Source of the DNA: Candidatus Reidiella endopervernicosa
GTDB lineage: Bacteria > Pseudomonadota > Gammaproteobacteria > GCF-013343005
NCBI RefSeq assembly: GCF_013343005.1
Contig: NZ_CP054491.1
Coordinates: forward strand, 1,532,501 to 1,596,500
DNA length: 64,000 bases
Reading direction: 5' to 3'
The notes under the pieces were generated by a model. That model ran no database searches, was not told the origin of the DNA, and worked only from the letters and a program-made list of their open reading frames with translations. Every line of letters begins with the position of its first letter. Position 1 is the stretch's first letter. Below, one piece after another: positions 7,695 to 54,467 of the stretch. The position numbers and the translations under genes are program-made.

Positions 7695-8003
7695 ATGGCT
7701 ACTGAGTTTGAGCCCAAGGTGGGTGAGTGGTACAAGTATTCCGAGACCGGCAAGCTGTTTGAGGTTGTCGCGTTTGATGAGGATGAAGGTGCGATCGAGA
7801 TTCAACATCTGGATGGTGAGGTTGAGGAACTTGATCTCGAAATCTGGTTTGAGGTTGATCTCGAGATGGCAGAGGCACCGGAGGATTGGAGCGCCGCCTA
7901 CGACGGCATCGATAAGGATGATCTAGGTTATAGCGACAAGGCGATTCGCCCAGAGGATTGGTCGGGACCGATGAATGAGATCGACCGGCTAGAGAGTGAT
8001 TGA
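7695..8003 (+). CDS. Small acidic protein, DUF6763-like
   Basis: A 102-residue, strongly acidic protein. It starts MATEFEPKVGEWYKY and contains a compact beta-rich stretch (LFEVVAFDEDEGAIEIQ), followed by two similar tryptophan-containing segments, APEDWSAAYDGI and RPEDWSGPMNEI. It resembles the small conserved gammaproteobacterial proteins annotated as DUF6763, from memory of the family pattern. Function is unknown. ATG 7695 follows GGGGGAGG at 7683-7690, a very strong ribosome-binding site, so the longer frame from 7635 is not used. Confidence 0.7.
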   Translation: MATEFEPKVGEWYKYSETGKLFEVVAFDEDEGAIEIQHLDGEVEELDLEIWFEVDLEMAEAPEDWSAAYDGIDKDDLGYSDKAIRPEDWSGPMNEIDRLESD

Positions 8004-8006
8004 GCC

Positions 8007-10727
8007 TTACTCTGGAGGCTGAGGTTCGCTCTCCTCCGGATCGTGTTTTCCCTTTTCGCCAAACTCGTGGCGGATTGTGGCATAGCTCTCAATCCGCTCT
8101 GCTACCAGCTGGTTAATGCTCCCTTCCGGATAGTGTTCGTCATCATCCATTTCGCCTGCATCGCAGGCCATTAGCAGGGTGGCTGCCTCGTCGATGGTGT
8201 GGATGGGGTAGATCTGGAAACTACCATTTTCGACCGCCTCTACCACATCGCGGCGTAACATCAGGTGTTTGACGTTGCTGGCGGGTATCAATACCGCATG
8301 TTCATCCAGCTCTCCGCGCCCGCGGCAGATATCGAAAAACCCTTCAATCTTCTCATTGACCCCGCCGATCGCCTGTACCTCGCCGTGTTGATTGACCGAG
8401 CCAGTAACGGCGAGTGATTGCAGAATCGGTTTGTTGGCAAGTGATGAGAGCAGGGCGCAGAGTTCTGCAATCGATGCGCTATCGCCTTCGACTCCGCCGT
8501 AGCTCTGTTCAAACACCAGGCTGGCGGAGAATGAGAGCGGGTGTTTTTGGCCGTAGCGTTCGCCCAACAGTGCGGTGAGGATCATCACCCCCTTGGAGTG
8601 AATGGCGCCACCGAGTTCGATCTCACGTTCAATGTCGATGATCTCGCCCTCACCGAGGCGTGTGGTGGCGGTAATTCGTGTCGGTTGTGCAAAACGGAAG
8701 TTTCCGAGATCGATCACCGAAAGGGCGTTGACCTGTCCTACCTTGCTGCCGGAGGTGTCGATCAGCAGGGTGCCGCGATTGATCTCTTCGTAACTATGTT
8801 CACGTAATCGATCGGCGCGCCGAATCTGTGCGTCGATGGCCTGTTGAATATCACTGTCGTTGATCGCGCTGTGGTTGTTGATGGTGGCAAATCGGGAGTC
8901 GCTATTTTGCGGGAAACTTGTTTTGGGCATCCAAGCCCAAGCAAGCGGCAAATACTTAACGCGACCGTTTATGCCTACGGCGCCCCGACCGTCCTGCGTA
9001 CGTTGCGTAATCACCTCTTCGCGGCTCTACACAACTCCCTCAGTGACTCTACGCCGACATAAAGCCGCTGCTGCATCTTCTCCGTCGTTCGCTCACGCCT
9101 CAACTACGAATAGGCAGACGGCGTCGACTATCGGGACTAACCGCCTTCGCTTCGCTATCCATGGCGGTCAGCGGTGGTCGGCCTCACACAGCAGATCGAC
9201 CAGGGTGCGGGCGTGAGTCGAGAGCTTCTCGTTATCGCCGCTACGACGTGCGCTGTATTCAATCACCCGCACCACGGCGGAGCGGTGCAGAGGAAGGAGC
9301 TTCTCTTTATGCGCCAGCATGCCGAGCAGACGTGCATAGAGTAGGCGATTCTCAGCGGTAGCCTCGATCTGCTCCTCAAAGTCGGCGGCCACCTTGAACA
9401 GTTCAGCAAAGTCGGGGTCGTACTCGAGCAGGATGTAGTAGAGCAGTCGGTCACCGATCAGGATTACCTTGATATCGAGCGGGATCGGTTCGGGTTCAAG
9501 CGAAACGGTGCTGATCAGGCTAAGCATCTGCCCCAGCGACTCAATCTTGATCTCTCCGGCGCGCAAAGCGCGTTTGAGGCCCTCCCAGGCGTAGGGCTCA
9601 GTGAGCAGTTTGCGAATATCAAGAATCAGGTATCCACCATTGGCCTGGTGCAGAGCGCCGGGTTTGATCAGGGTGAAGTCGGTGATCAGGGCGCCCATCT
9701 GTGCAATATGCTCGACGCGACCAACCATGCTCTGGAATGAGGGGTTGTCGTTGTAGATGATCGGCGCACCTTTTGAGTCACTTTGATCGATTAGCAGGTT
9801 GACGCGGTAGCGATTGAAAAGAGAATTCTGATTGTTAGCTGTGGCATTGCTCGGTTGTTTACTCTCTTTGCCGTCCGGTTTGATAAAGATCTCGGTATTC
9901 TCAACCAGATCATCGCGTACCGACTCCAGATAGGTCACCACCTTGGGCAGATTACTGAAGCGGATGGTTAACGCGTCGATCAGGTGAGCAACGGCGGTCA
10001 TAGTGACTTCGTGATTGAGCTGCTTGGTATGCTCGCGTGCCTCTTTATTCCAGAGCGGGATCTGATTGAGAATGTGGTGCAGCTTCTCCTGCAGTGTGGA
10101 GACAATCTGCTCAATGCGTGCCTGCTCCTCTTGGCCGAGCTGTTCATATTTCTCTGGTGGAATGACCTCGCCCTCTGTGGTGGGCGCGAAGGCAAAACCC
10201 GATGGGGTGCGGATCAGGGTGATCTGGTGCTGTTCCGCCTCCTGCTGTAGCTCCGCAAAGGCGCTCTCCTGGCGCTCTTTCAGTGCGTCCTGTATCTCCT
10301 GAACCCGATTCTGATACTCCTCACCTTCAAAGGCGGCGGGGATGGCGCTAAGTAACTCCTCGATCAGGTGGTCCATCTCTCGATGCAGCTCGACTCCTTC
10401 GCCAGCGGGGAGTTCGAGTGCGAGTGGCTTGTGTGTCTCTTTGAAATTGTTGACGTAGCACCAGTCGGAGGGGGTGCGGTCGTTGCTGGCCTGCTGTTCG
10501 ACAAAGTGCTGGATCAGTGTGTGACGACCGATGCCAGCGGGGCCAAGGGCGTAGATATTGTATCCTTCGCGACGTATCGCAATGCCAAAATGGACCGCCT
10601 CTTCAGCGCGGGACTGGCCAACGATCTCTTTGAGGCCATCAAGCTCATCGGTGGTTTCAAACTCAAACTGGTCCGGGTCGCAAAGGCGACAGAGCTGCTG
10701 GCTATTGAGCGGTTTGATCGGTTGCAT
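8007..10727 (-). pseudogene. Lon-type (LonB/YcbZ-like) protease split by a repeat insertion
   Basis: The N-terminal piece (9175-10727) begins MQPIKPLNSQQL. It has a variant P-loop GPAGIGRHT (Arg in place of Lys), AAA+ elements NGGYLILDIRKLL and the helical lid ending ...CEADHR. The C-terminal piece (8007-8892) resumes FATINNHSAINDSDIQQAI and contains the Lon catalytic Ser motif YGGVEGDSASIAEL and Lys motif GGVNEKIEGFFD. Both pieces are in the same frame. Removing the 276-nt repeat plus one CCG copy restores DHRFAT without a gap, for a protein of about 813 residues. The repeat supplies a TGA immediately. A start inside the repeat (9014) could still express the protease domain alone, which is an inference. 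Confidence 0.85.
8896..9171 (-). repeat. Approx. 280-nt dispersed repeat, copy A (inside Lon-like gene)
   Basis: This copy is near-identical by eye, in reverse orientation, to copies at 17216-17493 and 54165-54444. The element reads CTGACCGCC...GCGACTCC. It contains a terminal hairpin ACCGCC/GGCGGT and a second hairpin TTGGGC/GCCCAA near the other end. CCG flanks both sides (8893-8895 and 9172-9174), compatible with a 3-nt target duplication. It encodes no plausible protein and is probably non-autonomous. Confidence 0.85.
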
Positions 10728-11117: not shown

Positions 11118-12419
11118 ATGCAAGTTTCAGTCGAGACAACCGAGGGCCTTGAGCGCCGCATGACCATTGAGGTGCCCGCCGAGGAGATTGAACAGGCCAT
11201 TGAGAGCCGTCTGGAGTCGATGAAAGGTCAGGTCAAGGTTGCTGGCTTCCGTCCTGGCAAGGTGCCGCTCAAGGTGGTTAAGCGTCAGTATGGTGATCAG
11301 GTTCGCGCCGAGATTGTAGAAGAGGCGATTCGCAATGCGCTCTCCAACGCGGTTAATCAGGAAAATCTACGCCCTGCAGGCAGTCCTCTGATTGAGCCTA
11401 AGCCTCTCGAGGCGGGCAAGGCGCTGGAGTTCTCTGCAACCTTTGAGATCTATCCGGAGTTTGAGCTTGCTGCGCTTGAGGGTGCCAAGATCGAGAAGCC
11501 GGTTGTTGAGATCAGGGTGGAAGATCTTGAACAGATGCTCAACAAGCTGCGCGATCAGAAGGCAGAGTGGAACGACGTTGAGCGTGAGGCACAGAATGGC
11601 GATCGTGTAATGATCGATTTTGTCGGTGCTATCGATGGCGAAGAGTTCCCTGGTGGTACCGGCCAGCAGGTTGCCGTTGTGCTGGGTGCCAATAGCATGA
11701 TCCCCGGTTTTGAAGATGGGTTGATCGGTAGCAAGGCGGGCGAGGAACATAGCCTCGATCTGACCTTCCCCGAAGAGTACGGTGCCAAAGAGCTTGCGGG
11801 TAAGGATGTGAACTTCAAGGTCACTGTCACCACCGTTGCTGAATCTTTCCTGCCTGAGCTGGATGATGCCTTTGCTGTTGATTTTGGTGTGGCTGATGGC
11901 GGTATCGAAACGCTGCGCAATGAAGTACGTGCCAATATGGATCGTGAGCTTGAGCAGGCAGTGAAGGGCAGTGTTAAAGAGCAGGTAATGGAGCTGCTGC
12001 TGTCGAAGAACGAATTTGACGTGCCAAAGGCGCTGGTCGATCAGGAGATCGGAAATCTGATGCAGCAGTCGGGTCTGCAGATGCCGCCCGAGATGCAGAA
12101 GGATCCGGAGCCGGTTCGTGCGCTGTTTGAAGAGCAGGCGAAAAAACGCGTCAAGCTGAGCTTGATTTTGGCTAATGTCGCCAACAGAAATGAGATTAAG
12201 GTTGACCCTGATCGTGTCCGTGAGACGGTCGATAAGGTTTCGCAGACCTACGACAACCCAGAAGAGTTTGTGAAGTGGTACTACAGTAATCGCGAGGCAC
12301 TGGCGCACGTAGAGTCGCTAGTACTTGAAGAGCAGATCGTTGACTGGGCTGTTGAGCAGCTCGAAGTCAGCGAGGTAGCGAAGTCATTTGAAGAGGTCAT
12401 GGCGTCGAAAACTGCTTAA
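11118..12419 (+). CDS. tig: Trigger factor chaperone
   Basis: Ribosome-associated chaperone with prolyl isomerase activity that meets nascent chains at the exit tunnel. The 433-residue product begins MQVSVETTEGLERRMTIEV. It has the ribosome-docking signature GFRPGKVP near residue 44, an FKBP-like domain from about 150 (GDRVMIDFVGAIDG, GTGQQVAVVLG, MIPGFEDGL), and a long helical C-terminal domain. Length matches the family (about 430). The order tig-clpP-clpX-lon-hupB-ppiD is the classical proteobacterial arrangement. The start has GAGGTG 9 nt upstream. Confidence 0.97.
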   Translation: MQVSVETTEGLERRMTIEVPAEEIEQAIESRLESMKGQVKVAGFRPGKVPLKVVKRQYGDQVRAEIVEEAIRNALSNAVNQENLRPAGSPLIEPKPLEAGKALEFSATFEIYPEFELAALEGAKIEKPVVEIRVEDLEQMLNKLRDQKAEWNDVEREAQNGDRVMIDFVGAIDGEEFPGGTGQQVAVVLGANSMIPGFEDGLIGSKAGEEHSLDLTFPEEYGAKELAGKDVNFKVTVTTVAESFLPELDDAFAVDFGVADGGIETLRNEVRANMDRELEQAVKGSVKEQVMELLLSKNEFDVPKALVDQEIGNLMQQSGLQMPPEMQKDPEPVRALFEEQAKKRVKLSLILANVANRNEIKVDPDRVRETVDKVSQTYDNPEEFVKWYYSNREALAHVESLVLEEQIVDWAVEQLEVSEVAKSFEEVMASKTA

Positions 12420-12448
12420 GTAATCAAAGCCGTAGTCGAGGGGATTAA

Positions 12449-13087
12449 ATGAGCAATTTTGGTGGATTTGACGGTATTCAGGCATCAGGCCTGGTTCCGA
12501 TGGTGGTTGAGCAGACGCAGCGTGGTGAGCGTTCCTACGATATCTACTCACGACTGCTCAAAGAGCGCGTGATCTTCATGGTTGGCCAGGTCGAAGACCA
12601 TATGGCAAACCTGATTGTCGCGCAGTTGCTCTTCCTCGAGTCAGAGAATCCCGATAAAGATATCCATCTCTATATCAACTCACCGGGTGGTTCGGTCAGT
12701 GCCGGTCTCTCAATCTACGACACGATGCAATTTATCAAACCCGACGTCAGCACCATGTGCATCGGTCAGGCGGCCAGCATGGGTGCGGTGTTATTGGCGG
12801 GTGGTGCGGCAGGTAAGCGCTTTGCGCTACCTCACTCTCGCACCATGATTCATCAACCGCTGGGTGGCTTCCAGGGTCAGGCCTCAGATATTGAGCGCCA
12901 TGCCAAAGAGATCCTGTTGGTGCGTGAACGTCTCAACAAGATCCTTGCCGACCATACCGGTCAGTCGATTGAAAAGATTGCAGCCGATACCGATCGTGAT
13001 TTCTTCATGAGTGGTGAAGAGAGTGCCGAATACGGCTTGATCGATTCAGTGCTAGATAACCGCGCAGCAGTTGCTTCTGAGGAGTAA
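12449..13087 (+). CDS. clpP: ATP-dependent Clp protease proteolytic subunit
   Basis: ClpP is the serine peptidase chamber of ClpXP/ClpAP. The 212-residue product has the catalytic serine in [14 protein letters not shown] near residue 110, the catalytic histidine in [12 protein letters not shown] near 135, and an aspartate in DTDRDFFMS. The N-terminal propeptide-like stretch and [23 protein letters not shown] are typical. It starts 29 nt after tig. A small hairpin CAGTGC/GCACTG follows at 13110-13124. Confidence 0.97.
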
Positions 13088-13293
13088 GGCACGCCGCTGA
13101 GTCACGCGACAGTGCACGGCACTGCGCTGTGGCATTTCAGGCATAACCTCTTATATGACAAGGGATTGACTTGTCACAAACGTCCGAACGTAGTTGAATT
13201 GGACTCAGGGAAATCGAATAGCGGTGCTGAAACGCATCGGAGCAATATTGGGTGCTGACAGAGAGTCGGTATCTGAATGAACGAGGTAAGGTC

Positions 13294-14568
13294 ATGAACG
13301 ACGAAACTGGAAAGGGTGACGAGGGTAAGTTGCTCTATTGCTCATTCTGCGGCAAGAGTCAGCACGAGGTGCGTAAGCTGATTGCTGGACCCTCTGTCTA
13401 CGTTTGTGATGAGTGTGTGGAACTCTGTAACGATATCATTCGTGAGGAGATGCAGGAGAAGGCCGAGGGTGAAGAGAATCATCTGCCCAAGCCACACGAA
13501 ATCAAACAGATTCTTGATGAGTATGTAATCGGTCAGGAGCGTGCCAAGAAGGTGCTCTCTGTGGCTGTTTACAATCACTACAAGCGCCTTGAAGCCAGCA
13601 CCTCGAGCAAGGATGAGGTGGAGCTCTCTAAGAGTAATATTCTCCTGATCGGTCCAACCGGTTGCGGTAAGACGCTGCTGGCTGAAACGCTGGCGCGTCT
13701 GTTGAATGTTCCTTTCACCATGGCCGATGCCACCACCCTAACCGAGGCCGGTTATGTGGGTGAGGATGTTGAGAACATCATCCAGAAGCTGTTGCAGAAG
13801 TGCGACTACGATGTCGACAAGGCGCAGACCGGTATTGTCTATATCGATGAGATCGATAAGATCTCGCGTAAGTCAGATAATCCATCGATTACCCGTGATG
13901 TGTCGGGTGAGGGTGTGCAGCAGGCGCTGCTCAAACTGATCGAGGGCACCGTTGCCTCTGTACCGCCGCAGGGTGGTCGCAAACATCCGCAGCAGGAGTT
14001 TCTGCAGGTCGATACCAAGAATATCCTGTTCATTGTTGGTGGAGCCTTTGCCGGTCTCGATAAGGTGATTACCAGCCGCTCTGAGAAGGGGGGCATCGGC
14101 TTCTCTGCCGAAGTGAAGAGCAAGGAGGATGGTCGTGCATTGGGTGAGGTGCTCTACGACGTCGAGCCCGAGGATCTGATTCGCTACGGCCTGATTCCTG
14201 AGTTTGTCGGTCGTCTGCCTGTTGTGGCGACACTGGAAGAGCTCGATGAAGATGCCCTGATCAAGATTCTCAGTCAGCCGAAGAATGCCTTGACCAAACA
14301 GTATTCCAAGCTGTTCCAAATGGAGGATGTCGATCTGGAGTTCCGTGAGGATGCGCTGCGTGCGGTAGCCCGCAAGGCGATGGAGCGTAAGACCGGCGCA
14401 CGCGGTCTTCGTACCATTCTCGAGACGACGCTGCTCGATACCATGTACGATCTTCCATCAATGGACAACGTTACCAAGGTTGTTGTTGATGAGGCGGCTA
14501 TCACGGGCGATTCCAAGCCCTATCTAATCTTCGAGGGTGCTGAATCGACCGCTTCTGTCGGCGAGTAA
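13294..14568 (+). CDS. clpX: Clp protease ATP-binding subunit ClpX
   Basis: AAA+ unfoldase that recognises tagged substrates and feeds ClpP. The 424-residue product has the N-terminal zinc-binding domain CSFCGKSQ...CDECVELC, Walker A GPTGCGKT, Walker [11 protein letters not shown], the pore loop GYVGED and the ClpP-docking IGF loop (GGIGFSAE). ATG 13294 is chosen because CGAGGTAAG immediately precedes it; the frame is open from 13252. An inverted repeat TGACAAG/CTTGTCA lies at 13156-13176 in the clpP-clpX gap and could carry its own promoter or operator, though this is weak. Confidence 0.97.
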
Positions 14569-17207: not shown

Positions 17208-17215
17208 CTCTGGCG

Positions 17216-17493
17216 CTGACCGCCATGGAGAGCGAAGTGAGGGCGGTTAGTCCCCGATAGTCGACGCCGTCTGTATATTCGTAGTTGAGAGCGCGAGCGA
17301 ACGACGGAGAAGATGCAGCAGCGGCTTTATGTCGGCGTAGAGTCACTGAGGGAGTTGTGTAGAGCCGCGAAGAGGTGATTACGCAACGAACGCAGAACGT
17401 CGGGCGCCGCAGGCATAAACGGTCGCGTGAAGTTTTGCTGTTTGCTTGGGCTTGATGCCCAAAACAAACTTTCGCAAAAATAGCGACTCCCCG
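17216..17493 (+). repeat. Approx. 280-nt dispersed repeat, copy B
   Basis: Second copy of the CTGACCGCC...GCGACTCC element, oriented with lon and beginning just after its stop. The ends match copies A and C (right end ...GACTCCCCGG). It fills most of the 445-nt lon-hupB gap. Small open frames within it are the same spurious ones seen in the other copies. Confidence 0.85.
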
Positions 17494-17523
17494 GGCAGCA
17501 GTAGTTAAGGCGTTTGTCAACGA

Positions 17524-30371: not shown

Positions 30372-30742
30372 CTATTAGCACACCTACCTTTGAGTGACAC
30401 ATTTACCATTCGATTCTGTGAAGATGCTCACAAAAGGGAGTTGATAGCTTATGAAGTGGAGCTGGGGTAGTCGTGAATAGGCCTGGCGTAGAGTCTCAAT
30501 TTGTCCTCTCCTGGTATGACTCGCCTCACTCAGCTCTCTCGTAGCAACAGGATTACATTGCAGCGCTCGGTAGATGTGAAACAGCGAGAAGGCTATTGAA
30601 GGTTATTGTGCGGGACGGATAGGTAATTGAATAACATAACTATTGTTTCGAGTAGGGCTTGCTGAAGAACGATGCGCAGGCGTATATAAGGCAAAAATCT
30701 GCTAGAGTGCGCCCACTCTCCAACCGCTCGAGGGCTCTGCCG
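30372..30742. other. Intergenic region before the helicase, nothing identified
   Basis: About 370 nt without a convincing gene, repeat or RNA. The AT-rich segment 30620-30660 could carry the helicase promoter. No clear -35/-10 pair, terminator or riboswitch-like structure was recognised. Confidence 0.4.
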
Positions 30743-32014
30743 TTGTTCTCCAATCTCCCACTCAATGCGCGTCTACTCAAGGCGCTCAAGGCTCTCGACT
30801 ACCAGAGCGCCACACCGGTACAGCTCAACGCGATACCTCCTGCACTAAAAGCGCAGGATCTGCTGGTAAGTGCCGAGACCGGTAGCGGTAAGACCGCAGC
30901 CTTCCTGTTACCAACCCTGCATCAACTGTTAGCCAATCGAGCACGTCGTGCGGGGGTGCGAGCACTGGTATTGGTGCCAACCCGTGAATTGGGCCGACAG
31001 GTCTATGTGCAGTGTCAGAAACTGTGCGAATTTACCGACCTGCAGACGCTGCTGATTACCGGTGGGGATGACTACAAAGAGCAGGTTAAGCAGCTGGAAG
31101 AGGGGCCTGCTGTGGTAATCGCTACCCCTGGCCGACTCTTCGATCACCTGAAGAAAGGCACCGCCAAGCTCAATGATCTTGAGGTGTTAATACTCGATGA
31201 GGCCGATCGCATGCTCGATATGGGCTTTGGCGATACGGTGATGAGTATCGCCAAGCGGAGTAGAAGAGAGCGTCAGACGCTGCTCTTCTCCGCCACTATC
31301 GAAAGGGGAGAGGTGGCAGCCATGGCCAGGCTACTGCTCGATGAGCCACAGATCATCACACTCGCCACCTCGCAGGATAAACACACCAACATCGAACAGC
31401 AGATGGTGTTGGCCGACGATGTGGCACATAAGGAACGGTTACTGCAGAGGCTGCTCTCTAATGATGAATACGGCAAGGCGCTGGTCTTTACCAACACCCG
31501 TGTTCAGGCCGACCGACTCGGCGGATTGCTGCGCAGCAGTGAGATCCGGACTGGCGTGTTACACGGTGATATGGATCAGGAGAAGCGCAACCTGGTAATG
31601 GATATGATCCGTCGCGGCAATGTTCAGGTGATGGTTGCCACCGACCTGGCGGCACGCGGTCTCGATGTGAAAGGGATCGATCTGGTTATCAATTTCGAAA
31701 TGGCGCGTAGCGGTGATGACTATGTACACCGAATCGGCCGTACTGGACGGGCCGGTGAAAAGGGCGTGGCTATATCGTTAATTGACCATAACGAGTGGAA
31801 TCGAACCGCCGGTATCGAACGCTACCTCAAACAACGTTTTGAGCGCCGTGAGATCGAGGGGTTAGTAGCGACCTATAAGGGCCCGAAAAAACAGAAGGCC
31901 TCCGGTAAGGCGGCTGGTAGTAAAAAACAGAAGCTGGCTCGTAAAAAGAGCAAGGTGAAAAAACGTCTGCGCGATAAGAAGAGTGTTGGCAAACGACGTA
32001 AACCAAACAAGTGA
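30743..32014 (+). CDS. DEAD-box ATP-dependent RNA helicase (SrmB/RhlE-like)
   Basis: Remodels RNA, probably in ribosome assembly. Motifs appear in order: Q-motif (SATPVQLNAIPPAL), I AETGSGKTAA, Ia PTRELGRQ, II VLILDEADRML, III LFSATIE, then GVLHGDMDQEKR, ATDLAARGLDVKG and HRIGRTGRAGEKG. The C-terminus is a Lys/Arg-rich tail (KKQK, KKSKVKKRLRDKK) for RNA binding. The frame opens at TTG 30659; TTG 30743 is preferred because GAGGG lies 9 nt before it and LFSNLPLNARLLKAL is the family-like N-terminus. The start is therefore uncertain. Confidence 0.9.
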   Translation: MFSNLPLNARLLKALKALDYQSATPVQLNAIPPALKAQDLLVSAETGSGKTAAFLLPTLHQLLANRARRAGVRALVLVPTRELGRQVYVQCQKLCEFTDLQTLLITGGDDYKEQVKQLEEGPAVVIATPGRLFDHLKKGTAKLNDLEVLILDEADRMLDMGFGDTVMSIAKRSRRERQTLLFSATIERGEVAAMARLLLDEPQIITLATSQDKHTNIEQQMVLADDVAHKERLLQRLLSNDEYGKALVFTNTRVQADRLGGLLRSSEIRTGVLHGDMDQEKRNLVMDMIRRGNVQVMVATDLAARGLDVKGIDLVINFEMARSGDDYVHRIGRTGRAGEKGVAISLIDHNEWNRTAGIERYLKQRFERREIEGLVATYKGPKKQKASGKAAGSKKQKLARKKSKVKKRLRDKKSVGKRRKPNK

Positions 32015-32090
32015 GTATGACCCAGGAGTTTGCTAGTTCCTCACTGATACTGCCATACGGCGGCTATCCTTGATCCGTCGCTTTGTACGA

Positions 32091-33913
32091 TCACAATGGG
32101 GTGGTGGTGATAAGATATGAGCTTAAGAGGGTGTTCAGCATTTTCCTGCGCTCATTATCAATAGGTGAGTTGTTGGATTGCCACTCTGAAATAACTCCGC
32201 CTGTCTGTGTGATGTGGCGGATACGATCAACGGGTAGGCCAGTCTGGATGAACTCGTCGGTCTGAATAAGAAGTACGACTGATTCAACTTTACGGTTCAT
32301 GAGTAGTGCAATCGTACGTGTAAACAGTGATATAGAAGGAAACGGCATCTCCTGCAGAGACGGGGTGATAGTCAGATAATGACTAGTTAGGTAACAAGCA
32401 GTGCCGCCATCGACCTGTAGCTGCTGAATCTTTCGGGCCGTTTTTTCCGCCTCGCTGCCTCCTATTACGACCTCTACCGGTATTCGTCCATCACCTTCAA
32501 TAAAATTCTCAAAATAGTGCGGAAGTCGCGCCCTTGCAGTGGGGTGGCCGCCAAAGTATGGAGCGAAATTGACTTCGTTTATAATCGCTCCGTTTTGATG
32601 CCATGGTATAGATATATCGCTAGAGATGATGTCGATGCCAGCATTCGAGAGTTGAAAGAGTTCTGCCGCGCGAAGAGCAATAGCTCTGTTGTCAGGGTGA
32701 ACTTGATCGCTTGCGTCGGTGATGTCACCACTCCACTCGGATGATTCGATCTTTCTGATTGGAACTGTTGTTCCAGGTTCAGGAATTGTCTCCGGTGAAA
32801 AACCATTTTCGGTGATTGAGTCTAATGCCAGCTCATCAAGCGGAATAGCCTTGCTGCGTTTCCAGGGTGGGGTTGCCAGTAGTTTTTTATTTGCGAGTTC
32901 AATGAGTTCGGAGACTGTATGTTCTCCATCGCCTATGACCGCTCTCGGACCACGTCGTAGGGCATAGAGCATCTCGTTATTGGCGATAAAGATACGATAA
33001 CAGACGCCAGGTACCTCTTTCTCGATGAGTATCTTTTTTGAATGCTTGGATGCTGTATTGAATGCGCCAGCAAGTTGTTTAAGGTTATGAATGCCAACAG
33101 TGACCCCTTCGCCACGATCTAGATCCGCCGGTTTTACAACCAGTGGCCAGCCTAGCTTTAGCGCTGCCTGTTGTGCCTGTTTAGGTGAATAGGTAAGTAT
33201 ATGTGGGTTGGAGAGGGAAGTCCTGCGCTACGGGTCAGTGTTGAGGTCCATGCTTTGTTTTGTGACACCTTTGAGCCAAAGGCTGAGTCGGATTCGACAG
33301 AGCTTCTATCTATTAGCCGTGCCCTACTACCCCAACCCAGCTGATAAAGACCGCTGCCAAGATGGCGAAAGGGAATGTCAAGATCGTAGGCAGCCTTTAG
33401 AATATGTGTTGTGGATATCCCGGCAACCACTCTGGCGCGTATAGGCTGAACTGTCTTTTTACTAATGGCACTTTGTATTGCCGATAGGTTGAGTGGTTCC
33501 TGTGGCATATATATACACTGCCGCAATACTCTGAGTGCACTTCGGTAAGCCTTAATTAATAATTTCAGCGAAACGTGATCGATTGCAGGTATCGCGATCT
33601 GGATATGCCATTTTTGAGTGTTTTCTTCGCTCCTGTCTGTGTTGAGAATAACGCCAAGATCGAAAATTGGGAGTCGTGCATCCTGCAAGATTGATCGAGC
33701 AATTATCATTGCTCGTTCTGAAAACGTTTCGGCAGTGGAGTGTGGGCGAGAGGTTTCCGTTGACCACTCATCTATTTGAAGACCGTAAATTTTCTGAATT
33801 ACTTTATCGACTGCTGTGAAATCGACCGTCTCCGGACAATCGAAAGAGAGAAAGATCTGGGTTTCGAGTTGACGTAAACCGGACTTGTAGCCGTGGACAC
33901 TCTGGTTAACCAT
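32091..33913 (-). pseudogene. Cyanophycin-synthetase-like ATP-grasp enzyme of the RiPP locus (frame-broken)
   Basis: Two frames make one protein of about 607 residues. The first (33158-33913) holds the CphA-type N-terminal domain and the ATP-grasp entry HLGSGLYQLGWGSRARLID. The continuous frame after about 33205 reads ILTYSPKQAQQAALKLGWPLVVKPAD, split here by family spacing, then DRGEGVTVGI, EVPGVCYRIF, RRGPRAVIGDG and the ATP-grasp end NGAIINEVNFAP. A deletion of one base near ACCC (33203-33212) explains the break. The C-terminus keeps a short relic of the Mur-ligase domain (IPVEVVIGGSEAEKTARKI) whose P-loop glycine is Glu. It is divergent from the precursor gene. ATP-dependent peptide ligation is inferred. 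Confidence 0.8.
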
Positions 33914-33978
33914 GGTTTTGTGTTTTCAAGAGGGAAAAAGCCTATAAATAGTAGCGTGCATGTGGTGTGGTGATGAAA

Positions 33979-34033
33979 TTGACATGTTCTGGCTAATTTG
34001 TTCATATGCTAACCTGATTTGCCTAATTACAAT
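33979..34033 (+). promoter_or_regulatory. Candidate promoter region of the precursor gene
   Basis: The AT-rich divergent gap contains a perfect TTGACA (33979-33984) with only weak -10 candidates about 17-20 nt downstream, and a separate TACAAT at 34028-34033. No fully convincing pair is present. The gap must serve both the precursor and the divergent ATP-grasp gene. Confidence 0.3.
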
Positions 34034-34055
34034 AGTTTTTACCAAGGGGGAATGT

Positions 34056-34295
34056 ATGGTCAAGGATGTTATTCTGGATTCAAATAAATTACTGGGTTTT
34101 AAAATCTTGGGAAAGAGGGATTCGCTCGACGCTGTCGAATTTGGAGCCAAGATTGCAAAACCAGTCACTGCTAAAACCGCAATGGGCGCGAAGATCGGAA
34201 AGGCGCCACCAGCCCCTCAGCTTGGCGCAAAGATTGGTAAGGCTCCATCTTCAACCACTCTGCTCGGAGCGAAAATTGGTAAGGCACCTCTCTAG
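34056..34295 (+). CDS. Candidate RiPP precursor peptide with GAKIGKAP repeats
   Basis: A 79-residue peptide with a leader-like N-terminal half (MVKDVILDSNKLLGFKILGK, then RDSLDAVE) and a C-terminal half of four repeats: FGAKIAKP, MGAKIGKAP, LGAKIGKAP and LGAKIGKAP, spaced 13-14 residues, ending in Leu. Acidic residues are confined to the leader; the repeats have only Lys, Ser and Thr side chains that could react. AAGGGGGAA at 34043-34051 is an excellent ribosome-binding site for ATG 34056. It is flanked by an ATP-grasp gene and an HExxH gene, and followed by a strong terminator. It matches no family I can name. Confidence 0.8.
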   Translation: MVKDVILDSNKLLGFKILGKRDSLDAVEFGAKIAKPVTAKTAMGAKIGKAPPAPQLGAKIGKAPSSTTLLGAKIGKAPL

Positions 34296-34386
34296 CAATT
34301 AAATTGGAAACAGTGTCAGAAATTGGCGTGCTACTTAATTAGCGGCTTATTACGGTAAGCACACAATAGTCGTCGTGATAGAGTAG

Positions 34387-34418
34387 GAACCGATCGCCTT
34401 ACTGCGGTCGGTTTTTTT
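34387..34418 (+). terminator. Intrinsic terminator between precursor and HExxH gene
   Basis: Stem ACCGA-CGC with GCG-TCGGT, followed by seven T (34412-34418). The HExxH gene begins 15 nt later with no obvious separate promoter. It probably acts as a partial terminator that keeps precursor mRNA in excess of enzyme mRNA. Confidence 0.85.
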
Positions 34419-34432
34419 ATGGTGAATGACTA

Positions 34433-35425
34433 ATGACTATCCACTTCTCCTTCCTGCCCGATCCCATACGCGCCAGGGCTATTGACAGCAGAATGCGTCA
34501 AGGTTTGGCAGATAGCCTTAATTATGTCTCCGGTGAACTTGGCAAGCAGGTTGGAAAATCGCTCGATGGCGTGGATGAGTTGGTTGCTGCAACCAGTCGT
34601 GGTGCAGTCTATCCACCCTCTACTTTTGGACTCTATTACGAAATAGTTTCGGCTGTGATGGAGGATGGACATCAAGCGGCGGAAACTCTGATCAATGAGT
34701 TGCAGTCAGAACGTAAGCTGGACGGCAATGAATTAAATGTGACCACTCTGGGTGGGATTGAATCTATCTCAGTTCAGAAACGCTATCAGCGGTTAATGGA
34801 TACTGATCCCAATACTCCCTTTACGATACTTTCACCTGCTGGTGAGGAGGCTGATGACCTTGTTTCTCAGTTCAAGTCTGGTCATAGACGGCTTCGTGAG
34901 ACCATTCCAGTGCTGGCAGATGAGTTCGAGTCGTTGGTGAAAGAGGTGGTTCTGGTTGTCGGTGATGTCGAATCGAATGGGTATGACTTTGCCGGTGGTT
35001 CCAGTTATATGCTTTGGGGGGCGCTCTTTATCAATGCCGAGCGACATAAGAGCGATGTGGCCTTGATTGAAGCGATTGCACATGAGAGTGCGCATAGCTT
35101 TCTGTTTGGTATGACCTACGACGAACCGTTGGTCCTAAATGCGGATGACGAACTTCTTCAGTCGCCACTTCGCGATGATCCCCGACCAATGGATGGAATT
35201 TACCACGCGACCTTTGTATTGGCGCGCATGCACTGGGCAATGTCGGCATTGATCGATTCCGGGAAGCTACAAGGTATCGAATTGGATGAAGCAAAAGCGG
35301 CGCGGGAGCGTGATCGCATTAGCTTCTTTGATGGATACGGAACTGTTAGCGAATTCGCAAAGATGAGTGAGACAGGTCATGCGTTGATGGAAGGTGCGTA
35401 CAGTTACATGGAGCCCTTCCAGTAG
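34433..35425 (+). CDS. HExxH-motif putative peptide-modifying enzyme (aKG-HExxH hydroxylase type)
   Basis: A 330-residue protein resembling the HEXXH-motif putative peptide-modification family, some members of which are described as alpha-ketoglutarate-dependent peptide beta-hydroxylases. Its centre reads ALFINAERHKSDVALIEA, then IAHESAHSFLFGM (HESAH metal motif near residue 222). A further histidine follows in DGIYHATFVLARMHWAM, a plausible third ligand. The upstream part is helical and variable. The position directly after the precursor gene suggests it acts on the GAKIGKAP peptide. Metallopeptidase activity is the alternative reading of HExxH. No strong ribosome-binding site is seen. Confidence 0.75.
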   Translation: MTIHFSFLPDPIRARAIDSRMRQGLADSLNYVSGELGKQVGKSLDGVDELVAATSRGAVYPPSTFGLYYEIVSAVMEDGHQAAETLINELQSERKLDGNELNVTTLGGIESISVQKRYQRLMDTDPNTPFTILSPAGEEADDLVSQFKSGHRRLRETIPVLADEFESLVKEVVLVVGDVESNGYDFAGGSSYMLWGALFINAERHKSDVALIEAIAHESAHSFLFGMTYDEPLVLNADDELLQSPLRDDPRPMDGIYHATFVLARMHWAMSALIDSGKLQGIELDEAKAARERDRISFFDGYGTVSEFAKMSETGHALMEGAYSYMEPFQ

Positions 35426-35484: not shown

Positions 35485-36615
35485 TTACCCGGCTGAAATA
35501 ATGATGTGGCTGATCTCGCTAGGAGCGAGTACACGCAGTGGCGGTCCCCAGTAACCGGTTCCCCGACTGACAAAAATCTGTCTGCGTGCATCGTGTCGGT
35601 GCAGTCCGGCCAGATAGGGTTGATCGATCATCACCAGAAAGCCGAAGGGAAAGATCTGGCCTCCATGGGTGTGGCCGCTGAGCATCAGATCGAATTGATG
35701 CTCTTTGATCAGGTTAATCCCTTTGGGCTGGTGACAGAGCAGGATGGTCGGAATATTCGTATCAACACCATCAAACGCCCTATCAAAATCTAATGGCAGT
35801 GAACCAATGCGTTCGCCAATGACATCGTTTACCCCTACCAGATTAAACTGCTGGCCACTCTTCTCAATCACTTCGCTCTCATTAAGTAGCGGCCTGATGC
35901 CGAGTGTGCGTAGATATTCGATAACGGGTTCAGCGCCGTGGAAATATTCGTGGTTGCCGAGAATAAAGTAGCAGGGGCACTGTAGGCGTTGCAGCGGCTC
36001 AAGGTCCTGTCGGATATCCTCAAGTGGCAGATCGATTAGATCGCCGGTTATTACAACCATGTCGGGATGCAGTGCGTTGGTGCGCGCTACGGTCTCCTCT
36101 ATAAAGCCCCGTTTTATCGTCCGTCCTACGTGTACGTCACTGAGTTGCACAATAGAGTAGTTGTCGATTGGGAAGTCTTTGATCTTTACCTCAACGCTGT
36201 TAATTCCTGGTGCCTTGATGCCCTGTGAAAATCCGCGTAACAGATAAGCAGTAGCGGCTATTAACATGGTGATGTCGAAGAGTATTTTGATGGTGCGACG
36301 GCGGCCCTGGTCGAAGGGAACCCGTCTCGAGGTGGTGATGGTCAGATCGTAGATCGTCGCGATGACAAAGAGCATGAAGGTGATGCCGATGAAGGCGCTG
36401 TTGATCATGTAGAGTAGAGGTGACTGGGCCAACAGGTCGAGTACACGGTCGAGCATGAAGAAAATTTCACCCGCCATCAGGGTGATGGGGATAATGGCAG
36501 CATATTGGCTGAAGTGGGGTGAGAGTTTTTTGAAAAAACGTCGATAGATATAGAAGTTAGCCGCTGCCATGACCAGCAGAAAGATAGAGGCAAAAATGAT
36601 AAGTCGTAGTGGCAT
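35485..36615 (-). CDS. Membrane-anchored metallophosphoesterase (YkuE-like)
   Basis: A 376-residue protein with four N-terminal membrane segments (residues about 5-135) and a calcineurin-like phosphoesterase domain. Motifs: QLSDVHVGRT near 158, VITGDLIDLP, ILGNHEYFHG, LLCHQPKG and SGHTHGGQIFPFG. This is the YkuE/YaeI type. Family members act on phosphorylated lipids or nucleotides; the substrate here is unknown. The active site most likely faces the cytoplasm or periplasm near the membrane; topology is not settled by the sequence. Confidence 0.87.
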   Translation of the reverse strand: MPLRLIIFASIFLLVMAAANFYIYRRFFKKLSPHFSQYAAIIPITLMAGEIFFMLDRVLDLLAQSPLLYMINSAFIGITFMLFVIATIYDLTITTSRRVPFDQGRRRTIKILFDITMLIAATAYLLRGFSQGIKAPGINSVEVKIKDFPIDNYSIVQLSDVHVGRTIKRGFIEETVARTNALHPDMVVITGDLIDLPLEDIRQDLEPLQRLQCPCYFILGNHEYFHGAEPVIEYLRTLGIRPLLNESEVIEKSGQQFNLVGVNDVIGERIGSLPLDFDRAFDGVDTNIPTILLCHQPKGINLIKEHQFDLMLSGHTHGGQIFPFGFLVMIDQPYLAGLHRHDARRQIFVSRGTGYWGPPLRVLAPSEISHIIISAG

Positions 36616-54151: not shown

Positions 54152-54164
54152 GGGCAAACTTCCG

Positions 54165-54444
54165 CTGACCGCCATGGAGAGCGAAGTGAGGGCGGTTAGT
54201 CCCGATAGTCGACGCCGTCTGCCTATTCGTAGTTGAGAGCGCGAGCGGACGACGAAGAAGATGCAGCAGCGGCTTTATGTCGGCGTAGAGTCACTGAGGG
54301 AGTTGTGTAGAGCCGCGAAGAGGTGATTACGCAACGTACGCAGGACGGTCGGAGCGCCGTAGGCATAAACGGTCGCGTTAGTATTTGCCGCTTGCTTGGG
54401 CTTGATGCCCAAAACAAGCTTCCGCAAAAATAGCGACTCCCCGG
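54165..54444 (+). repeat. Approx. 280-nt dispersed repeat, copy C
   Basis: Third copy of the CTGACCGCC...GCGACTCC element, in the orientation of the upstream gene. It fills most of the 316-nt gap before the next secreted protein and contains only the spurious short frames shared by all copies. It begins just downstream of a stop codon, as copy B does. Confidence 0.85.
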
Positions 54445-54467
54445 TGATGTTGTAGTGGGGGAGAGGA

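Follow-up and report, generated by a model that had tools for sequence, protein, structure and literature searches.

A compact three-gene locus, found in a window of 64,000 nucleotides (positions 1,532,501-1,596,500 of a complete genome of 3.45 Mb in one contig), is very likely a RiPP-type cassette. As predicted from the sequence, it combines a small encoded precursor, a conserved leader, a putatively modifiable core and adjoining enzymes, namely an HExxH oxygenase and an ATP-grasp ligase. On balance, we favor reading it as a lysine-centred cassette, in which the HExxH enzyme would be recruited by the leader for hydroxylation and the ATP-grasp enzyme would form amides at the lysines of the core. 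The preliminary description of this DNA had also proposed a modification locus, a reading that is supported overall: the precursor, the HExxH gene and the CphA-like ATP-grasp are all present, but the last is not one open frame.

The locus is located between a DEAD-box helicase-like and a metallophosphatase-like gene, and all three of its genes are low in G+C. The features, in window coordinates, are as follows:

30659-32014: DEAD-box helicase-like gene (name read off the translation)
32090-33913, minus strand: CphA-like ATP-grasp ligase gene, type 1, frame-broken (~605 aa in intact relatives)
33195-33208, minus strand: frame break, net +2 nt, placed by alignment with relatives of equal local length
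34044-34050, plus strand: probable ribosome-binding site AAGGGGG, shortly upstream of the ATG at 34056
34056 (ATG)-34295 (stop), plus strand: precursor peptide gene, 79 aa, with the leader LDSNKLLGFK followed by a lysine-repeat core
34143-34166, plus strand: repeat 1, GAKIAKPV
34185-34208, plus strand: repeat 2, GAKIGKAP
34224-34247, plus strand: repeat 3, GAKIGKAP
34266-34289, plus strand: repeat 4, GAKIGKAP
34385-34416, plus strand: intrinsic-terminator-like hairpin with a T run, between the precursor and the HExxH gene (-17.7 kcal/mol, z -3.8)
34433-35425, plus strand: aKG-HExxH peptide oxygenase gene, 330 aa (TIGR04267 profile and fold)
35485-36615: metallophosphatase-like gene (name read off the translation)

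The G+C content of the locus was 47.4% vs. 54.2% elsewhere in the window (~7% lower), and only 2 out of 304 equal-sized windows were as low, confirming the AT-richness that had been noticed by eye. The remainder of the window shows long uninterrupted reading frames. Structured RNAs were without match in an Rfam scan of 28-40 kb of the window, and the hairpin at 34385-34416 was absent from the output of a separate consensus scan. Phage or plasmid cargo was also considered and rejected, as phage records gave no match and plasmid matches were only partial and distant.

The precursor translation is MVKDVILDSNKLLGFKILGKRDSLDAVEFGAKIAKPVTAKTAMGAKIGKAPPAPQLGAKIGKAPSSTTLLGAKIGKAPL. Its previously reported length of 79 residues and its four units hold, although three units are exact GAKIGKAP copies and one is the variant GAKIAKPV. 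In pairwise comparisons, the exact copies show 4-6 synonymous changes and not a single nonsynonymous one, a pattern not expected from chance or recent DNA duplication and indicating that the repeat is kept at the protein level. No Asp or Glu is found in the repeat region (residues 30-79).

The HExxH protein reached 94.9 bits against TIGR04267 (curated cut-off 40). Among 14 homologues, H217, E218, H221, and H258 were invariant, and the HExxH, SPLR.D.RP, and the following His were invariant or nearly so, while the AlphaFold2 model (pLDDT 82, pTM 0.85) matched the HExxH domain of ChlB (8s5f) with an E-value of 6e-9. By profile, motif, and predicted fold, the protein is thus assigned to the aKG-HExxH peptide beta-hydroxylases, and the likeness to these enzymes recorded earlier is upheld by both TIGR04267 and the 8s5f fold. 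In characterised members of the family, the hydroxylated position is the beta carbon of Asp, His, Gln, Phe, or Pro, and two of these enzymes can also cut the peptide backbone (PMC12636437, PMC13060819). Oxidation of the precursor by the HExxH enzyme is likely. It is improbable that the enzyme instead cuts the repeats by oxidative backbone cleavage, with the short amidated peptides being coupled afterwards by the ligase: several short products would fit a multi-unit precursor and the same-family PflC and PosC do cleave oxidatively at ARMD (PMC12636437), but these two cut only near the C terminus and the precursor carries no ARMD-like site. Hydroxylation within the repeats is the preferred reading.

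The divergent ATP-grasp gene had been correctly described as present and CphA-like, but its frame break near 33.2 kb was missed. The N part (33203-33913, P0004) and the C part (32090-33227, P0003) are in different frames, with the first 237 codons separated from the last 378, and profile A4 matches positions 2-235 and 234-601 in these two frames. The C part is 46% identical to its counterpart at locus L010, and intact ligases of ~605 aa were found at other loci once relatives were looked for, as had been recommended. Profile and structure-based searches relate this type 1 ligase to cyanophycin synthetase, namely to its N and ATP-grasp domains (E 4e-61 for the CphA ATP-grasp domain). A cyanophycin synthetase proper was rejected, since the intact relatives score 203-229 bits vs. 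cut-offs of 850-877, are only ~605 aa long, and the Mur-ligase domain is without match.

Given the broken ligase frame, the low G+C, and the patchy distribution, the window locus could be an acquired fragment in decay that yields no active ligase, a possibility that we take seriously without favoring it. Against decay, both ligase halves retain the family motifs, the oxygenase gene is uninterrupted, and the repeats are conserved as protein, which argues for a break that is either recent or a sequencing error; moreover, a second, intact cassette with a type 2 ligase, a different precursor, and an HExxH gene is present in the same genome (~2,613,878-2,616,278, L023). The ligase step may have been lost at the window locus or be supplied from the second cassette (2.61 Mb); alternatively, the break may be an error of sequencing. 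As a separate observation, a dispersed repeat of ~285 bp (91-98% identical) occurs in the window at 8894-9174, 17208-17494, and 54162-54447, with a fourth copy immediately downstream of this second cassette (G000:C1, ~2616462-2616751); it is possibly a small mobile or regulatory repeat.

The preliminary description had suggested a search for the precursor next to ATP-grasp and HExxH genes in other genomes, and would have been contradicted by an absence of such linkage together with an unconserved precursor. Neither was the case, as the precursor is under purifying selection (see below) and a leader-type precursor, an HExxH gene, and an ATP-grasp gene were found together at 22 loci beyond the window (L009, L010, L011, L012, L013, L023, L024, L025, L031, L047, L048, L049, L051, L052, L053, and seven in one genus), of which those sharing a common ancestry are not independent observations. 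Relatives were gathered by a genome-contig scan with the HExxH protein (five loci) and, for the others, by whole-genome searches. Cassette hosts belong to gamma-, beta-, and alphaproteobacteria, the last being deduced from a 'same phylum, other class' label. The cassette was kept in 7 out of 7 genomes of one genus, and only 6 of the 369 sampled genomes of the window's class held an HExxH homologue; this uneven distribution suggests transfer. Neither a dedicated protease nor a dedicated exporter is consistently found next to the cassettes.

Some loci depart from this layout. At L030 the enzymes are present and the precursor would fall beyond the contig end, while L050 has a precursor and an HExxH gene with no local ligase. 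L049 (G808:C8:185000-195000) contains five tandem precursor genes, two type 2 ATP-grasp genes, and one HExxH gene. At L028 (G555, 7997-8206 and neighbours), a leader-like precursor with two copies of the core LGRLFSKRG lies next to a divergent HExxH gene, and the place of the ATP-grasp is taken by an AMP-ligase/thioesterase-like gene. Among the leader-bearing loci, it is the only one to lack both an ATP-grasp ligase on site and a known ligase locus elsewhere, and the GxKxGxK core is absent as well, a contrast given by a single, divergent locus; it is possible that L028 represents a sister pathway.

The leader consensus of 25 precursors is LDxSKLLGF[KR], with the glycine G14 invariant in the first 13 that were aligned, and the cores share the unit GxKxGxK, with variable core lengths and unit numbers. 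GAKIGKAP, initially taken as the repeat, is real in the window but represents one form of this wider core. K.G.K occurred 39 times vs. 2.7 ± 1.5 in composition-matched shuffles and K.G 69 times vs. 22.7 in shuffles, while I, V, M, T, Q, K, P, and E all occur between K and G, so that the constrained positions are K and G themselves. In five closer members of one genus the dN/dS of the precursor was 0.12-0.18, and one pair in the same genus differed by 7 synonymous and 0 nonsynonymous changes; between close pairs, the precursor is under strong purifying selection. None of the 13 precursors searched against NCBIfam matched a family, even at an E-value of 10.

These cores bear on where the ligase would act. 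The type 1 ligase is nearest to CphA, N-acetylglutaminylglutamine synthetase, and GshAB, enzymes that join amines to carboxylates of a peptide or amino acid, and it could accordingly extend or amidate the C terminus of the precursor, much as a C-terminal carboxylate is lengthened by CphA and glutathione-type ligases, leaving the repeats to the HExxH enzyme alone. We regard this as unlikely, because constraint falls on the internal lysine units, whereas the C-terminal residues are free to vary (KAPL, PPP, VGN, SPA, KNV, and others). Graspetide-like macrocycles, in which the ATP-grasp would cross-link the amines of lysines with acidic side chains of the same peptide, are brought to mind by an ATP-grasp adjoining a lysine-rich multi-core precursor, but are very unlikely here. 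The whole cores of L010, L012, and L031 contain zero acidic residues, as does the repeat region of the window precursor, and acids occupy no conserved core position in the family, so the usual graspetide chemistry is excluded for several members, the window repeat region included. Assignment as a graspetide was therefore rejected for want of conserved Asp/Glu partners in the core, and a graspetide synthetase was rejected too: by sequence the ligases match CphA or D-Ala-D-Ala ligase rather than graspetide synthetases, and the solved-structure matches were CphA, GshAB, Ddl, and other ATP-grasp proteins, with no graspetide synthetase named. Modification of the lysines is our preferred reading of the ligase step, with the action of the ATP-grasp on the precursor being fairly probable and the lysine side chain as its site a tentative choice, held at slightly less than even confidence.

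Cassettes with the second ligase type provide a further view of this step. The type 2 ligase (~320 aa) carries the ATP-grasp-like signature EINTNP and matches D-Ala-D-Ala ligase weakly and nothing in NCBIfam; its AlphaFold2 model, built from two sequences, reached a pLDDT of only 41, too low for any use. In a profile-profile alignment, type 1 and type 2 covered ≤ 29 columns with a probability of 0.4%, i.e., at the profile level they are without detectable relation to each other. Five of the six type 2 matches above 200 bits in the class sample adjoin an HExxH gene, while type 1 is less exclusive to the cassette, with two 600-bit relatives having no HExxH gene nearby. In the HExxH tree, where several rows have long branches, the two types are intermixed alongside a single oxygenase clade, and a minimum of three changes between them is required by supported branches. 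One leader and core design is thus paired with either ligase. Judging from gene position, this argues for a ligase step within the pathway and for equivalent work by both types; the step seems to be needed and the ligase lineage exchangeable.

At L103 (G161:C11:80500-90500), a type 1 relative is found beside an apparent PKHD-type 2-oxoglutarate oxygenase and perhaps an outer-membrane receptor gene, the latter judged from length and start only, and a precursor was not seen at this locus. Near the L010 cassette, at 8969-9670 and 11712-13574, there are a 2-oxoglutarate oxygenase-like gene and a second, divergent CphA-like ligase.

In the proposed pathway, the ribosome would make a precursor with a recognition leader on its N-terminal side (LDxSKLLGF[KR]) and a GxKxGxK array on its C-terminal side, and the leader would bind or recruit the Fe(II)/2-oxoglutarate HExxH oxygenase, which would hydroxylate residues in each unit, most likely the lysines. 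The ATP-grasp would then make ATP-dependent amides in the same units, most likely by acylating the side-chain amines of lysine with an amino acid or a small carboxylic acid. We infer the order of the enzymatic steps and the second substrate of the ligase, which could alternatively act on the C terminus of the precursor or on a small molecule apart from it. Somewhat short of even confidence, we also put forward the broader proposal of an undescribed RiPP class, in which an HExxH oxygenase and an ATP-grasp would jointly modify GxKxGxK lysines and two independently recruited ATP-grasp lineages would perform the same peptide-directed step.

If true, a compact three-gene RiPP cassette would extend across several proteobacterial classes. 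The aKG-HExxH oxygenases, so far little explored, would probably gain a new substrate, and ATP-grasp enzymes a reaction on peptides that dispenses with acidic side chains. The two ligase lineages swapped beside one oxygenase and precursor design represent a natural experiment on which part sets the chemistry, and the cassettes are small enough for direct expression, making the question testable at once.

The preliminary description knew of no product with this combination of precursor and enzymes, and likewise no description of an HExxH plus ATP-grasp RiPP locus was found in open-access full text; the subscription literature, mostly outside this scope, possibly holds an account. Several known systems share parts of the design. 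The ATP-grasp domain of CphA (7lg5, 7txv) aligns with the type 1 ligase, but CphA has ~870 aa vs. ~605 aa and the type 1 partner would be a ribosomal peptide. Graspetides of the microviridin type have an ATP-grasp and multi-core precursors as well, and differ in their acidic partners and, by sequence, in the ligase family. The pfl/pos clusters of Pseudomonas (PflC, PosC) likewise direct an aKG-HExxH oxygenase to a small precursor by means of a leader; they have GNAT and MNIO-nitroreductase partners, a nitrile-hydratase-like leader, and Gln and ARMD sites (PMC12636437), in contrast to the ATP-grasp partner, the short LDxSKLLGF leader, and the GxKxGxK core of the present cassette. The pes cluster of Peribacillus (PesO, nitrilobacillins) similarly modifies a RiPP precursor with an aKG-HExxH and an enzyme that forms amides at the expense of ATP, but the latter is an asparagine-synthetase-like enzyme working at the C terminus, alongside an MNIO and Pro hydroxylation (PMC13060819). 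ChlB (8s5f) shares the HExxH fold and the SPxRxDxRP..H signature, whereas in the account of Morishita et al. (2024), as relayed in PMC13060819, it is fused to a radical SAM domain and acts on cyclophane peptides, with no ATP-grasp. A RiPP lysine carrying both an amine modification and a side-chain hydroxylation has a precedent in the std cluster (StdF and MNIO), whose enzymes are a carbamoyltransferase and an MNIO rather than an ATP-grasp and an HExxH protein (PMC13174530). RiPP loci with aKG-HExxH enzymes are thus already known, and the cassette described here is possibly a new RiPP class among them.
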